Part shown: positions 7,635-13,034 of the stretch, piece after piece
Position numbering within the stretch: position 1 is the stretch's first letter
How the letters are laid out: each line of letters starts with the position of its first letter
NCBI GenBank assembly: GCA_028709305.1
Contig: JAQVXE010000011.1
Location: 1 to 39,560, forward strand
DNA from: Bacillota bacterium
GTDB lineage: Bacteria; Bacillota; DTU025
Direction of reading: 5' to 3'
DNA length: 39,560 nucleotides
Position numbers and translations under genes: made by a program
Notes under the pieces: generated by a model
The model's database searches: none
What the model was told of the DNA's origin: nothing
The model's input: the letters and a program-made list of their open reading frames with translations, nothing else

Positions 7635-7658
7635 ATAAGCTTATTGACATTATTAATG
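7635..7658. promoter_or_regulatory. Two palindromes over the DUF2089 promoter (candidate operators)
   Basis: ATAAGCTTAT at 7635-7644 is a perfect 10-base palindrome touching the first base of the -35 hexamer. CATTATTAATG at 7648-7658 is a perfect palindrome around a central T (CATTA-T-TAATG) in the -35/-10 spacer. Their position would let a bound protein block RNA polymerase. The HTH protein encoded immediately downstream is a natural candidate for autoregulation. The region is AT-rich, so chance palindromes are possible. Confidence 0.35.
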
Positions 7659-7672
7659 AATGGATTTATAAT
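7644..7672 (+). promoter_or_regulatory. Consensus sigma-A promoter of the DUF2089/yvl-like module
   Basis: TTGACA at 7644-7649 and TATAAT at 7667-7672 are both exact consensus hexamers separated by the optimal 17 bases. Transcription would start near 7679, about 25 bases before the ATG of the DUF2089 gene. The 137-base gap after ogt, otherwise without a gene, thus holds the start of a new transcription unit. No convincing intrinsic terminator for the upstream operon is visible here. Confidence 0.9.
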
Positions 7673-7703: not shown

Positions 7704-8090
7704 ATGGCAAGGCGAGAGGCGTTGGGAAGATGTCCCGTTTGTGGCGAGATATTGGATGTGACCAGGCTGACATGCAGGAACTGCGAAACTGTGATAGAGG
7801 GCCGCTTCAATACTTGCAAATTCTGCCAACTCAATGCGGAACAGAAGAATTTTGTCGAAGTGTTTATCAAGAACAGGGGCAATATCAAAGAAGTCGAAAA
7901 GGAGCTCGGGATCTCCTATCCTACAGTCCGAAACAGGCTTGACGCTGTGATTGGCGCGTTGGGGTATGCAGTTGACAGCTCTGAGGATGATGCTGCAGAG
8001 GCTGCAGCCAGGCGCAAGGAGATCATTGAGTCACTTGCCAAAGGCGAGATAGCTGTAGATGACGCAGTGCGCCAACTGAAAGGGAAATAG
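7704..8090 (+). CDS. DUF2089 zinc-ribbon / helix-turn-helix protein, putative regulator
   Basis: The 128-residue protein matches the DUF2089 pattern. Six cysteines in three CxxC pairs (10/13, 24/27, 38/41) form a zinc-ribbon-like N-terminus. A helix-turn-helix-like segment follows (about residues 58-82, with ELGISYPTVRNRL), then a C-terminal helical hairpin (about 104-126, SLAKGEIAVDDAVRQL). Members of this family are usually treated as DNA-binding regulators, but their molecular role is not firmly established. The ATG at 7704 follows GGGGGG at 7691-7696; an upstream in-frame extension to 7593 lacks a binding site and crosses the promoter. The C-terminal hairpin resembles the N-termini of the next two gene products. 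I infer an autoregulator of this operon. Confidence 0.9.
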   Translation: MARREALGRCPVCGEILDVTRLTCRNCETVIEGRFNTCKFCQLNAEQKNFVEVFIKNRGNIKEVEKELGISYPTVRNRLDAVIGALGYAVDSSEDDAAEAAARRKEIIESLAKGEIAVDDAVRQLKGK

Positions 8091-8120
8091 GTGCTCATCT
8101 GTAATAGGGAGGTTTGTTCA

Positions 8121-9185
8121 ATGGACGACGAGAGAAGGATCGTCCTGAATCTGCTGGCAGAGAAGAGAATCACCGTAGAGGAAGCGGAGCAGCTCTTGGC
8201 CGCGCTGGAAGGCACAACTGAAACTGTGAGCGAAGTCGAGCGCGCAGACGCTGATTCTACATTCATGGACACTCTACCCGACAGGTTGTCCAAGGTCTTC
8301 TCTGAAATGGTAGACGCTGGGCAGGAGCTTCCCGGCCGTCTATCCAAGGCTATGGAGTCGTTGCTCGGCGGCTTTGGATGGAGTCGCCGTGGTGTACAGG
8401 CGGAGAAATGCTTTGCAGAGGACGTGTGCAGCCCGGACATACGTTCTATCGATTTTGCGACCAGAAATGGGAGCATAAGGGTAGTGGCCTGGGATAAGCC
8501 TGGGTACCATGTTGTTGCCAGGGCTCGAGTGGTGGGCGCAGACTCAGAGGAAGAAGCCGAGAGAAGGCTTGATTCTGCAATACGCTTGGTCACGCGCGAC
8601 GGAAAAGCGAGCATAGACTGTGAGGATAGGTTGATCGTGCACTCGCTGTCGATAGAGGCCTATTTTCCGAAAGATCGGACATATGATGTACTTGCGCACA
8701 CCAGAAATGGATCAATCACCCTCGAGAGCCTGAATGGGGGTTCCCTTGATGTGCGCTCATCAAATGGGCGCATGACGCTGGATTCCATAAGAGCTTCGAG
8801 GCTCGCCGCTGCGACCAGCAATGGGTCTGTGACTGCTTCGGGGCACTTTGGCGATGCGAGCATAGAGACTCTTAACGGACATGTGGCAACTACCCTCGAC
8901 TACGAATCTGATGGGCATTTGACCGTCAGGACCAGCAATGGCAGTATACGGATTACGACTTTGAATCGGCCTGACGTGTCATACGAGGTGAACGCAGAAA
9001 CCGCTAATGGAGCAATCAGAGTGTTGGATGAAGACACGGAGGTTCGCTCTGAACTAAGGTCCCCTGTTGGAACTGGCAGGAAGGTCGTTGCTTTGACTGG
9101 GACTAGTGGGCCTGAGGGTGGCGGTGCCAGGGTTAGGGTTGATGCCCGTGCTTCGAATGGGTCCATAAGCATCGAATCTCGTTAG
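8121..9185 (+). CDS. DUF4097 beta-ladder protein with SHOCT-like N-terminus (YvlB/LiaX-like)
   Basis: The 354-residue protein begins with a SHOCT-like helical hairpin (residues 5-30, LAEKRITVEEAEQLL). A linker follows, then a long DUF4097 domain of repeated short beta strands. Eight turns carry an Asn-Gly pair (TRNGSI, TRNGSI, SSNGRM, TSNGSV, TLNGHV, TSNGSI, TANGAI, ASNGSI), as expected for a regular beta solenoid or ladder. There is no signal peptide or transmembrane segment. The architecture resembles B. subtilis YvlB and enterococcal LiaX, both linked to cell-envelope stress. The ATG at 8121 follows AGGGAGG at 8106-8112; an in-frame start at 8091 has no binding site. The molecular function is unknown. 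Confidence 0.9.
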   Translation: MDDERRIVLNLLAEKRITVEEAEQLLAALEGTTETVSEVERADADSTFMDTLPDRLSKVFSEMVDAGQELPGRLSKAMESLLGGFGWSRRGVQAEKCFAEDVCSPDIRSIDFATRNGSIRVVAWDKPGYHVVARARVVGADSEEEAERRLDSAIRLVTRDGKASIDCEDRLIVHSLSIEAYFPKDRTYDVLAHTRNGSITLESLNGGSLDVRSSNGRMTLDSIRASRLAAATSNGSVTASGHFGDASIETLNGHVATTLDYESDGHLTVRTSNGSIRITTLNRPDVSYEVNAETANGAIRVLDEDTEVRSELRSPVGTGRKVVALTGTSGPEGGGARVRVDARASNGSISIESR

Positions 9186-9267
9186 AATATGGCGGAACAG
9201 ATTCTGCGTGGAACCCTGCGTTGTGCCTTGGATGAGATAGGGGTATCAGGGGAGGAGGTGTGGTTTG

Positions 9268-9639
9268 GTGGACAAGGAGAGGAAGCAGGTGCTCGAGATG
9301 GTGCGCGACGGAAAGCTCACGGTTGATGAAGCCCAGAAGATCTTGGATGCTATGATCGAGGGAGACGAGCGCATACGGTCGGTTGCAAGCCCGAAGCGGA
9401 GCCCTAGATTCCTGAGAATTCGCGTCAAGGACGAAGATGGTTCAAAGGTCAACCTGAACATTCCTATATCCCTTGCAAAAGTGATGATGAGATTCGTGCC
9501 CAGCGAAGTCATGGGGACGTTGTCAGATCAGAATGTGGACCTTGACGCCATTCTGGAAGCGGTGCGTGAGGGGGCCGAGGGCCAGCTGATTCATGTGAAA
9601 GAGGAAGATGGAGATGAAGTTGAGATAAGCGTCGAGTGA
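9268..9639 (+). CDS. Small SHOCT-like domain protein
   Basis: The 123-residue soluble protein starts with the same helical hairpin as its neighbours (residues 2-30, VRDGKLTVDEAQKIL). A compact alpha/beta domain follows, with LRIRVKDEDGSKVNLNIPIS and an acidic C-terminus. Similar small proteins accompany DUF4097 and PspC genes in many Bacillota. The function is unknown; a partner or antagonist of the larger DUF4097 protein is an inference from the shared domain. The strong ribosome binding site GGAGGAGG (9251-9258) serves either the GTG at 9268 (9 bases) or a TTG at 9265 (6 bases). I chose GTG. The preceding 82 bases after the DUF4097 gene show no promoter I can defend. Confidence 0.85.
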   Translation: MDKERKQVLEMVRDGKLTVDEAQKILDAMIEGDERIRSVASPKRSPRFLRIRVKDEDGSKVNLNIPISLAKVMMRFVPSEVMGTLSDQNVDLDAILEAVREGAEGQLIHVKEEDGDEVEISVE

Positions 9640-9757: not shown

Positions 9758-9949
9758 ATGCAGAGGCGACTGTACAGGTCTGTTCGCGATCGAATGCTAG
9801 GCGGCGTCTGTGGCGGATTGGCTAACTATGTGAATGTTGACCCTACACTTATACGTTTTCTGTGGGTAGCTTTCACGTTCTTTACGCGGACGCCAGGGAT
9901 CCTTCTGTATATCATCGCTTGGATTATTGTGCCTGAAGAGCCGATGTAG
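9758..9949 (+). CDS. PspC domain protein (YvlC-like)
   Basis: This 63-residue membrane protein is almost entirely a PspC domain. It has the GGVCGGLANY motif, VDPTLIRFLW, and a hydrophobic C-terminal half that forms a membrane segment ending in VPEEP. PspC proteins sense or transmit envelope stress, and B. subtilis YvlC has this size. The ATG at 9758 is preceded by GGAGGT at 9743-9748 with 9-base spacing. The upstream in-frame ATG at 9731 lacks a binding site and would add nine poorly conserved residues. About 118 bases separate it from the previous gene, without a clear promoter or hairpin. Confidence 0.9.
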   Translation: MQRRLYRSVRDRMLGGVCGGLANYVNVDPTLIRFLWVAFTFFTRTPGILLYIIAWIIVPEEPM

Positions 9950-10007: not shown

Positions 10008-10400
10008 ATGGCTTATAATGAAAACAGGCAACGCGGCATTCCAAAATGGGTCATCAAGTGGCTGGTAAATGCGCTCGCATTGCTCATAGTCTCATATGTT
10101 CCATATCGTGGACTCACACTTGTTCAGATTGACGGGGCAGGAACTGCGCTTATAGCCGCTGCCGTGCTCGGCATCGTGAACACCTTCATCAGGCCGATAT
10201 TCATGATATTCAGCTTGCCCATGCAGGTCTTGACTCTGGGCCTTTTCACGCTGGTAGTAAATGCGCTGATGCTATCCTTGGGGGCCTGGCTCATGGGAAG
10301 CGCATTCAATATTCCGGGGTTTTGGGCGGCAATACTTGCTTCGCTGTTGCTCAGCATTGTAAGCTCTGCCCTGAACCGCCTGATACGAAGGGACAGTTAG
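10008..10400 (+). CDS. Phage-holin-family four-helix membrane protein (YvlD-like)
   Basis: The 130-residue protein contains four predicted hydrophobic helices and the family signature around IVNTFIRPIF and LPMQVLTLGLFTLVVNALML. It belongs to the phage holin 4-TM superfamily that includes chromosomal YvlD-type proteins. It is not evidence of a prophage: there are no phage genes nearby and it sits directly after PspC, as in the B. subtilis yvl operon. The ATG at 10008 follows GAGGGTGG at 9994-10001. A membrane role in the envelope-stress module is inferred from context. Confidence 0.88.
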   Translation: MAYNENRQRGIPKWVIKWLVNALALLIVSYVPYRGLTLVQIDGAGTALIAAAVLGIVNTFIRPIFMIFSLPMQVLTLGLFTLVVNALMLSLGAWLMGSAFNIPGFWAAILASLLLSIVSSALNRLIRRDS

Positions 10401-11201: not shown

Positions 11202-11313
11202 ACAGAAAAGCATAGTTTCCAGCAGGTTTTGTCTTCTTCAGGAAGGTGTATGGACGCGAGGGACGAAATGTAATAACGGATAGCCTCGATACTCGTTTCG
11301 GGAGTGTTTGTAC

Positions 11314-12144
11314 GTGAACATGCTCGGTCTGGATCTTACGAGCATAACGCTTGTGCAGGCCTTGACCACAATCGCAGATATTGCGATCGTGGCGTTTCTC
11401 ATGTACACGGTCATTCGCTTCTTCAAGGATACTCAGGCCGTGTCACTGATAAAAGGATTGGCCATACTCTTTGCGGCCAACGCGATTTCAGAATATCTCA
11501 AGCTAGATGCACTCCGCTGGTTGCTGCGGCAGGTCACTACCATGACAATTGTGGCCATACCCATCGTCTTTCAGCCCGAATTTCGCAGGGCCCTTGAGCA
11601 ATTGGGCCGCGGGAGACTCTTCGGCAATCCTATGAAGTCCCTGGATCCCGAAGAGAAGAAGAAGGTTTTGCGTGAGGCAACAAGGGCAGTGGAGATGATG
11701 TCGAAGGAATACATCGGTGCCCTCGTTGTTCTGGAAAGGGAAACCGGCCTTGAGGATCTTGCCTCATCAGGCGTGAAGATCGACAGCCTGGTCTCGGCTG
11801 AGATCTTGATCAACATTTTCTCTCCGAATACGCCGCTCCATGATGGAGCTGTGATAGTGCGAGGCAACAGAATATTGTCAGCAGCGTGCATTCTGCCTCT
11901 CTCAGAAAGGTATGTGCCTGGGCGCAAATTGGGTACTCGGCACAGAGCGGCGCTCGGTCTCAGCGAGCGCACTGATGCGGCGGCCATAGTAGTATCGGAG
12001 GAGACCGGCACCATATCTTTGGCCTGCGATGGGCAGATCGTGCGAGGTTTGAGAGCTGATGAACTGCGTGCCAGACTGGAAAACCTATTCGATCAAGACG
12101 CTAGAGATACTGTTATCTGGAATTTAAGGGGCAATGGGAGATGA
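11314..12144 (+). CDS. cdaA: Diadenylate cyclase CdaA
   Basis: CdaA condenses two ATP to c-di-AMP at the membrane. From the GTG at 11314 the protein has 276 residues. Three N-terminal hydrophobic helices (about residues 12-85) precede the DAC domain, with the catalytic DGA at 177-179 and RHR at 209-211, matching the spacing in B. subtilis CdaA. The GTG is preceded by CGGGAG at 9-base spacing. A TTG at 11308 and an ATG at 11320 are alternative in-frame starts. The stop overlaps the cdaR start (ATGA) and glmM follows, the conserved order in Bacillota where CdaR and GlmM control cyclase activity. Confidence 0.95.
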   Translation: MNMLGLDLTSITLVQALTTIADIAIVAFLMYTVIRFFKDTQAVSLIKGLAILFAANAISEYLKLDALRWLLRQVTTMTIVAIPIVFQPEFRRALEQLGRGRLFGNPMKSLDPEEKKKVLREATRAVEMMSKEYIGALVVLERETGLEDLASSGVKIDSLVSAEILINIFSPNTPLHDGAVIVRGNRILSAACILPLSERYVPGRKLGTRHRAALGLSERTDAAAIVVSEETGTISLACDGQIVRGLRADELRARLENLFDQDARDTVIWNLRGNGR

Positions 12145-13034
12145 AACCTGTTTCTCCGGCAGCCAAGGACGTGTCGTTGAAGATTTTGGCCGTCGTGTTG
12201 GCCATCGCAATCTGGGCTGTCGCAATCACGGATAAGCAAACTGCATCGCCTGATTCCAAAATCGAAGTAGTCGTGCAGGCGCCTGTGGCCCTGAAGAATA
12301 TTCCTGATGATCTGCTGGTGACAGAGCCGCCTGCAGCCGTTACTGTAAGGCTTAGAGGCCCAAGGGGGTTGGAGTCGGCTGCATTGGAGTCTACCGCTGC
12401 TGTGGTTGATCTTGAGAAGGCCGGGCCGGGCGAGAATCTCTTCCCTGTTGAGGTTGTTCCCCCGGACGGGTTCGAGATGGTCAGGATGTCCAGGGCGGTG
12501 GTGGACTTGTCATTGGAGAGGCGTGTTGTCATCTCGTGTCCGGTCAAGGTCGGCCTTGTGACAGCTCCCCACCTAGACTTGGAACTTGGGCAAGGTTTGG
12601 CCGGAGCGTTGCTTCTCTTCTCCGAAGATGAAGCTTGCGATGGCGCCCATGCCACGCCAGACATTCTTGAAGAGGGCGGGGTTGCGGCCAGCCAGGATGT
12701 GGCTGAAGAGGAAAGCGGGCTCATCGAGCCTTCAGATGTAGATGTGGGCCCAGCGGCGGGCCAGGTCACCAATTTGAATGGAGAACCTAATTCAGGTAGG
12801 CCAAAGCGGGTGGACCTACCAGACTTGTCTGTGTCAATATCGGTATTGCCGGGCGAGGTTAGCGTTGCAGGCGCCGACAGCGTAGTGTCGAAGGTGGCGA
12901 GTGTTGTTGCTTTGGTAACTGTCGGGCCCGAGTCTTCGATGGTTGCGCCAGTGCTGACTCTGGATGTTCACGGAGAACCAGTTCCGGATGTGACTGTCTA
13001 TCCGGATACGGTTACAGTCAGCATAACTTACTAG
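12141..13034 (+). CDS. cdaR: CdaA regulator with YbbR domains
   Basis: CdaR is the extracytoplasmic YbbR-domain partner that modulates CdaA. The 297-residue protein has one N-terminal transmembrane anchor (about residues 12-30) and an outward-facing domain of YbbR-like beta repeats, the first at about 38-125. The next repeat begins with ISCPVKVGLV near 131. It is interrupted by an acidic, low-complexity stretch (about 152-228) before the fold resumes with LSVSISVLPGEVSVAG. Sequence similarity within YbbR proteins is low, so assignment rests on the hydrophobic anchor, the strand pattern and the position between cdaA (4-base overlap) and glmM. Confidence 0.88.
   Translation: MKPVSPAAKDVSLKILAVVLAIAIWAVAITDKQTASPDSKIEVVVQAPVALKNIPDDLLVTEPPAAVTVRLRGPRGLESAALESTAAVVDLEKAGPGENLFPVEVVPPDGFEMVRMSRAVVDLSLERRVVISCPVKVGLVTAPHLDLELGQGLAGALLLFSEDEACDGAHATPDILEEGGVAASQDVAEEESGLIEPSDVDVGPAAGQVTNLNGEPNSGRPKRVDLPDLSVSISVLPGEVSVAGADSVVSKVASVVALVTVGPESSMVAPVLTLDVHGEPVPDVTVYPDTVTVSITY

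Follow-up and report, generated by a model that had tools for sequence, protein, structure and literature searches.

Gene organization of the locus

An operon led by a DUF2089 regulator gene was found in the window, i.e., the whole stretch of 39,560 nucleotides that was analysed. The genes and features were assigned as follows.

7644..7672, forward strand: sigma-A-type promoter of the DUF2089 operon, TTGACA-17-TATAAT (12/12 consensus matches)
7644..7656, forward strand: candidate operator, 13-bp dyad TTGA-CATTA-TTAA (TTRA-N5-TYAA) overlapping the -35 element, taken from dyad enrichment upstream of DUF2089
7704..8090, forward strand: DUF2089 regulator P0001, with zinc ribbon PF22747 (residues 10-41), HTH PF09862 (residues 43-88) and SHOCT-like tail
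about 8001-8084, forward strand: SHOCT-like hairpin at the DUF2089 C-terminus, turn K-G-E (profile-profile comparison, AlphaFold2)
8121..9185, forward strand: DUF4097 (toastrack) protein P0002, YvlB/LiaX-like (PF13349, 4.5e-9)
8127..8216, forward strand: SHOCT-like hairpin at the DUF4097 N-terminus, turn E-K-R (PF22746, profile-profile comparison)
9268..9639, forward strand: small SHOCT-like protein P0003 (PF22746 match, AlphaFold2 model)
9274..9363, forward strand: SHOCT-like hairpin at the N-terminus of the small protein, turn D-G-K (PF22746, profile-profile comparison, AlphaFold2)
9400..9636, forward strand: unnamed beta-beta-alpha3-beta-beta domain, residues 45-123 of the small protein (AlphaFold2 model)
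9758..9949, forward strand: PspC-domain membrane protein P0004, YvlC/LiaY-like (PF04024, 2.7e-27)
10008..10400, forward strand: four-TM holin-superfamily protein P0005, YvlD/LiaZ-like (PF04020, 3.8e-32)

No terminator-like site was detected before position 11285 in a simple scan of the window. In the Pfam search, P0001 matched the zinc ribbon PF22747 (8.6e-13) and the DUF2089 HTH PF09862 (4.2e-26), and the toastrack domain of P0002 scored 36.5 bits against PF13349, above the cut-off of 22.9. The assignment of P0002 as LiaX was rejected; the LiaX model NF038025 scored 75.1 bits against a cut-off of 350 bits and covered residues 47-312 only, so P0002 is related to LiaX but is not LiaX. In B. subtilis yvl, yvlD is the four-TM gene. 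No useful PDB sequence match was obtained for P0001 and P0003.

Downstream of the operon (11308-13034), a HAD hydrolase gene is followed by cdaA, i.e., diadenylate cyclase with a DAC domain, and by a ybbR-like gene. The latter had no Pfam match at 1e-5. Homologues of cdaA were also present in the loci L157, L169, L170, and L173-L176.

The SHOCT-like hairpin in three consecutive proteins

The first-pass annotation had claimed that one helical-hairpin motif is shared by the C-terminus of the DUF2089 protein and the N-termini of the DUF4097 and small proteins, and had proposed a profile-profile comparison. Because circularity was to be avoided, the segments were cut by position and without any hairpin profile, giving 10 segments and 45 pairs. 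The relation was far above background for all three pairs: DUF2089-tail and DUF4097-N showed a probability of 97.8 (E 8.6e-13), DUF2089-tail and small-N 97.8 (E 1.1e-12), and DUF4097-N and small-N 99.3 (E 5.1e-20). The 41 control pairs did not exceed 23.2, and one further pair was a trivial overlap. The claim of a single motif in three consecutive proteins is thus borne out.

In the Pfam scan, P0003 matched PF22746 (SHOCT-like_DUF2089-C) with 36.7 bits at a cut-off of 27. P0002 missed this cut-off when proteins were scanned (23.3 bits, E 4.8e-5) and passed it when the genome was scanned (28 bits), and the P0001 tail gave no match. At family level, PF22746 was found in 36/43 aligned DUF2089 sequences (E of 0.01 or lower) and in 42/42 aligned small proteins, with P0001 and P0003 counted in, respectively. 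The hairpins also found each other when profiles were built from one side. A profile of effector hairpins alone recovered 35 DUF2089 proteins, and one of DUF2089 tails alone recovered 80 non-DUF2089 ORFs, the small protein of the window among them (17.8 bits, E 0.0023); each gave 0 matches in 13,100 reversed decoys.

A two-helix hairpin was seen in both proteins modelled with AlphaFold2. In P0003, the helices span residues 3-13 and 19-38, with pLDDT by ten-residue block of 90, 97, and 92 (residues 1-30) and 64 (31-40). In the P0001 tail, they span residues 93-113 and 118-126, with blockwise pLDDT of 91, 96, and 84 (residues 101-128) and 70 (91-100). Similarity by chance or by convergence among short amphipathic hairpins might be suspected, since the likeness between single sequences is weak (P0003 against P0002, E 0.2) and PF22746 misses the P0001 tail. 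However, this explanation is contradicted by the profile-profile result and by the strong profile links without reversed-decoy matches, and we regard it as highly improbable. The three hairpins are of common ancestry, and the module is PF22746.

Turn residues and charge swap

All hairpin classes could be placed in one register, in which they have their hydrophobic positions in common and nearly always a Gly at the turn, with class-specific residues flanking the turn. The Gly is conserved in 100% of DUF2089, 97% of DUF4097, and 92% of small proteins in the family alignments. This corrects the "Gly or basic turn" of the first-pass annotation; the Lys of the DUF4097 protein in the window is an exception.

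The usual turn is [KR]-G-E in DUF2089 and [DE]-G-K in the effectors. With the phylum and named sets pooled, so that some genomes occur in both, position 14 was acidic in 171/189 DUF2089 hairpins and basic in 141/155 small-protein hairpins and 98/105 toastrack N-terminal hairpins. Counted per family, acidic DUF2089 and basic effectors at position 14 were found in 40/53, and the reverse charges at position 12 in 32/53. Family f11 (L137, L138, and L156) is an exception to the swap, with an R-G-E turn in both effector and DUF2089 hairpins. Where a second toastrack protein has its hairpin at the C-terminus, the turn charge is mostly that of the effectors, which means that location at one or the other chain end does not account for the swap. 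Three arrangements are compatible with such a pattern: heterotypic pairs in parallel orientation, homotypic pairs in antiparallel orientation that are insulated from the other class, or salt bridges within one chain. No mention of a class-specific turn charge swap was found in the literature searched, and it seems to be new.

Conservation of the operon

DUF2089 was present in 140 of 398 genomes of the phylum. The survey took 120 loci from these 140 genomes and the window (121 loci), omitting part of the genomes with short contig ends as well as some others; 7 loci with less than 2.5 kb downstream were then dropped, giving a table of 114. By an iterated profile, 101 loci were scored as tailed and 13 as tailless. 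The make-up of the operon is conserved: 100/101 tailed loci carry a further hairpin-bearing gene on the same strand within -3 to +5 kb, and 1/13 tailless loci does. Among the 101 tailed loci, the small protein was found in 87, toastrack in 54, both in 44, YvlD in 52, and PspC in 18; the toastrack count was taken from this survey alone, as the named set inflates toastrack calls through short proteins. The small protein (87/101, against 54/101 for toastrack) is thus the commonest DUF2089 partner, of which no mention was found in the literature searched. At genome level, PF22746 matched in 128/140 genomes with DUF2089 and 18/258 without it; since the model recognizes DUF2089 tails as well, part of this co-occurrence is expected by construction.

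Several loci depart from this pattern. L064, L066, and L096, tailed or visibly tailed, have no hairpin neighbour, and the tails of L064 and L096 are visible but below the threshold of the profile. Tail scoring is also affected in L170 (G005), where tail and HTH are encoded in different reading frames and Ns lie close by, i.e., an assembly error or a frameshift, and in L144, L145, L147, L149, and L151. These five are divergent DUF2089 paralogues without hairpin neighbours that end in a different hairpin-like stretch of the ALIKRLALDEKIDFDTAKLLI type. In L068, L070, L085, L088, L095, L121, and L134, the operon is longer and has four or five hairpin genes, among them one for a second toastrack with a C-terminal hairpin.

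The C-terminal domain of the small protein is conserved along with DUF2089 operons. No recurrent Pfam family was found among the members of its alignment, and Foldseek gave no match at E 0.001 or better. The OSR1 CCT fold, the best in the VIA comparison, was rejected as too weak (Z 4.3).

The DUF2089 regulator and its candidate operator

The modelled HTH of P0001 (residues 37-90) was most similar in fold to VraR (Z 7.7) and LiaR (Z 7.3). DosR (7.6), SigK (6.9), and sigma region 4 (6.8) lie within one Z point, and all scores are below Z 8. In the model, VraR and LiaR rank first but are tied with other NarL-type and sigma-4 domains. With this HTH ranking and liaXYZ-like genes downstream, analogy suggests that DUF2089 may fill the role of LiaR without a kinase or receiver. 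No functional study of a DUF2089 regulator was found in the literature searched.

The dyad TTRA-N5-TYAA was first spotted in the regions upstream of DUF2089, and its enrichment counts there describe this discovery set. Within 300 bp upstream of the 121 DUF2089 genes, 133 dyads were counted against 6.3 expected, and 26 pairs were exactly 21 bp apart. Per region, 1.22 dyads were observed against 0.11 after shuffling of 20-bp blocks. The dyad coincides with the -35 element in 34/76 DUF2089-upstream promoters and in 4/214 of the remaining promoters at these loci (p 7e-19). Restricted to AT-rich subsets, the fractions were 0.585 of 41 and 0.028 of 36. At least one dyad was present in 83/107 tailed loci and in 2/14 scored as tailless, whereas 24/107 tailed loci had none within the 300 bp scanned. 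The window holds one clean dyad only. When inverted repeats around the -35 were scored in general, the score did not exceed that of shuffled sequence, in contrast to the specific dyad.

The dyad was also searched in whole genomes, which extends beyond the discovery set yet overlaps it. The tandem pattern gave 27 sites in 398 genomes, against 5 control sites. Placed by coordinates, 14 of these lie upstream of DUF2089, 9 elsewhere, 1 between DUF2089 and the small gene (G173), and 3 at contig ends (G010, G035, and G164). A single dyad with a -10 element occurs once in the window's own genome, at the DUF2089 promoter. In its order, this pattern was found in 9/12 genomes at one site each, 8 of them upstream of DUF2089. 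It is not specific over the whole phylum, where 81/398 genomes have it and most among the sites listed are not upstream of DUF2089.

From its sequence and placement, the dyad is a candidate autoregulatory operator with DUF2089 probably as the binder, and it could also serve another regulator. Its position over the -35 would speak for repression, and the in-phase repeats would speak for cooperativity. No mention of this site was found in the literature searched, and the words "operator", "palindrom", and "charge" are all absent from the main text of Ravi et al. (PMC11237479). The site seems to be new.

Possible roles of the hairpin

The first-pass annotation had further suggested that the regulator and the effectors bind each other or compete for a common partner. 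This is plausible from the sequences, in that the module is real, co-encoding is near-universal, and turn charges are opposite, but neither covariation nor hairpin-specific coevolution accompanied them. In its strict form, regulator and effector hairpins would bind directly, and free effector hairpins would titrate DUF2089 off the operator. The near-obligate co-encoding in tailed loci, the class-level charge inversion at positions 12 and 14, and its independence from the chain end argue for such binding. Against it, among 163 distinct operons no pair of DUF2089-tail and effector-hairpin positions showed charge covariation beyond the 95% permutation-maximum level; the D14-E14 correlation was r -0.19 (uncorrected p 0.035), and even the best-scoring pair lay at the 95% null level. 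In the mirror-tree analysis, hairpin-specific coevolution was not above control segments, i.e., the partial correlation of tail and small protein was 0.200 (p 0.003) against 0.195 for the zinc ribbon-small control, and that of tail and toastrack N-terminal hairpin was -0.062 (p 0.747). Lys at position 14 is also kept in 5/8 effectors of genomes without DUF2089, and family f11 is acidic in both partners. Pairing within one protein was considered as well, and only a weak second hairpin match was found, in L131. Direct binding with titration is judged somewhat unlikely.

Alternatively, each hairpin may attach the protein that carries it to a membrane partner, e.g., PspC, or to the inner face of the membrane, without hairpin-hairpin contact. 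This was stated as a prediction by Ravi et al. (2024), who describe the hairpin as a membrane anchor (PMC11237479). The occurrence of hairpins on diverse soluble domains and the frequency of membrane proteins in the operon, i.e., YvlD and PspC, agree with it. However, a permanent membrane tether is awkward for a DNA-binding protein, about half of the tailed loci have no detected YvlD neighbour, and the charge swap is left unexplained; independent anchoring is possible, though less likely than not. If hairpins pair like with like, the swap would insulate the self-assembly of DUF2089 on tandem operators from that of the effectors. The 21-bp operator repeats, being in phase, suggest cooperative binding, and dyads are commoner upstream of tailed than of tailless DUF2089. 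Ancestry confounds this association, the tailless set being made up of divergent paralogues. Either the HTH or the zinc ribbon could supply cooperativity, and a classical SHOCT domain was reported as monomeric, with no self-association in a CD4 fusion test (PMC3581485). Like-with-like pairing is judged unlikely.

The best explanation overall, put forward with moderate confidence, is that the SHOCT-like hairpin is an assembly module repeated in the regulator and effectors of an envelope-stress operon of the yvl/lia kind. DUF2089 would repress its own operon through the dyads over the -35, which in many cases recur in phase at a 21-bp spacing. Judged from the gene context, the toastrack, small, PspC, and four-TM proteins may act at the membrane, where the effector hairpins would assemble the soluble proteins. 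Putative hairpin contacts, either between DUF2089 molecules on tandem sites or between DUF2089 and effectors, could couple the envelope state to repression. By analogy, DUF2089 would thereby do without a kinase the job of LiaR in the classical lia system. A full scheme can be drawn, in which DUF2089 as kinase-free stand-in for LiaR represses cooperatively through its tail on phased dyads, and effector hairpins of opposite charge, freed on membrane disturbance, capture the tail and lift repression; taken as a whole, it is quite improbable.

Comparison with known systems

The gene order DUF4097, PspC, and 4-TM/holin is shared by yvlABCD of B. subtilis and by liaXYZ of E. faecalis, for the latter as described in PMC11601895; yvl is the counterpart in B. 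subtilis (PMC9239133). In Enterococcus, liaXYZ is under the control of the response regulator LiaR (PMC11601895), whereas the operon in the window is led by DUF2089. The four-gene DUF2089-Toastrack context of Ravi et al. (2024) contains the same ZnR-HTH-SHOCT-like DUF2089 and Toastrack, with SHOCT-like hairpins at both ends of the context and Toastrack proteins with an N-terminal SHOCT-like domain, as found here; a lia-like function was already suggested for it (PMC11237479). The passages of that paper on this context make no mention of the C-terminal domain of the small SHOCT-like protein (PMC11237479). The classical SHOCT domain of Eberhardt et al. (2013) is also a short amphipathic two-helix module on unrelated proteins (PMC3581485). 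The SHOCT-like form, often N-terminal here, is its divergent homologue according to Ravi et al. (PMC11237479).

PF22746 describes the same hairpin as that of the small protein, the DUF4097 N-terminus, and the DUF2089 tails of relatives. The module itself is no different from it and is already in print, and the class-specific charge swap is added here; the operator dyad and the swap are the parts that look new. If the preferred reading of an assembly module is true, many Bacillota would regulate an envelope-stress operon through one small protein. Its sensing element would be a 25-residue hairpin copied onto the regulator's own effectors. The candidate operator makes the DUF2089 regulator testable straight away.
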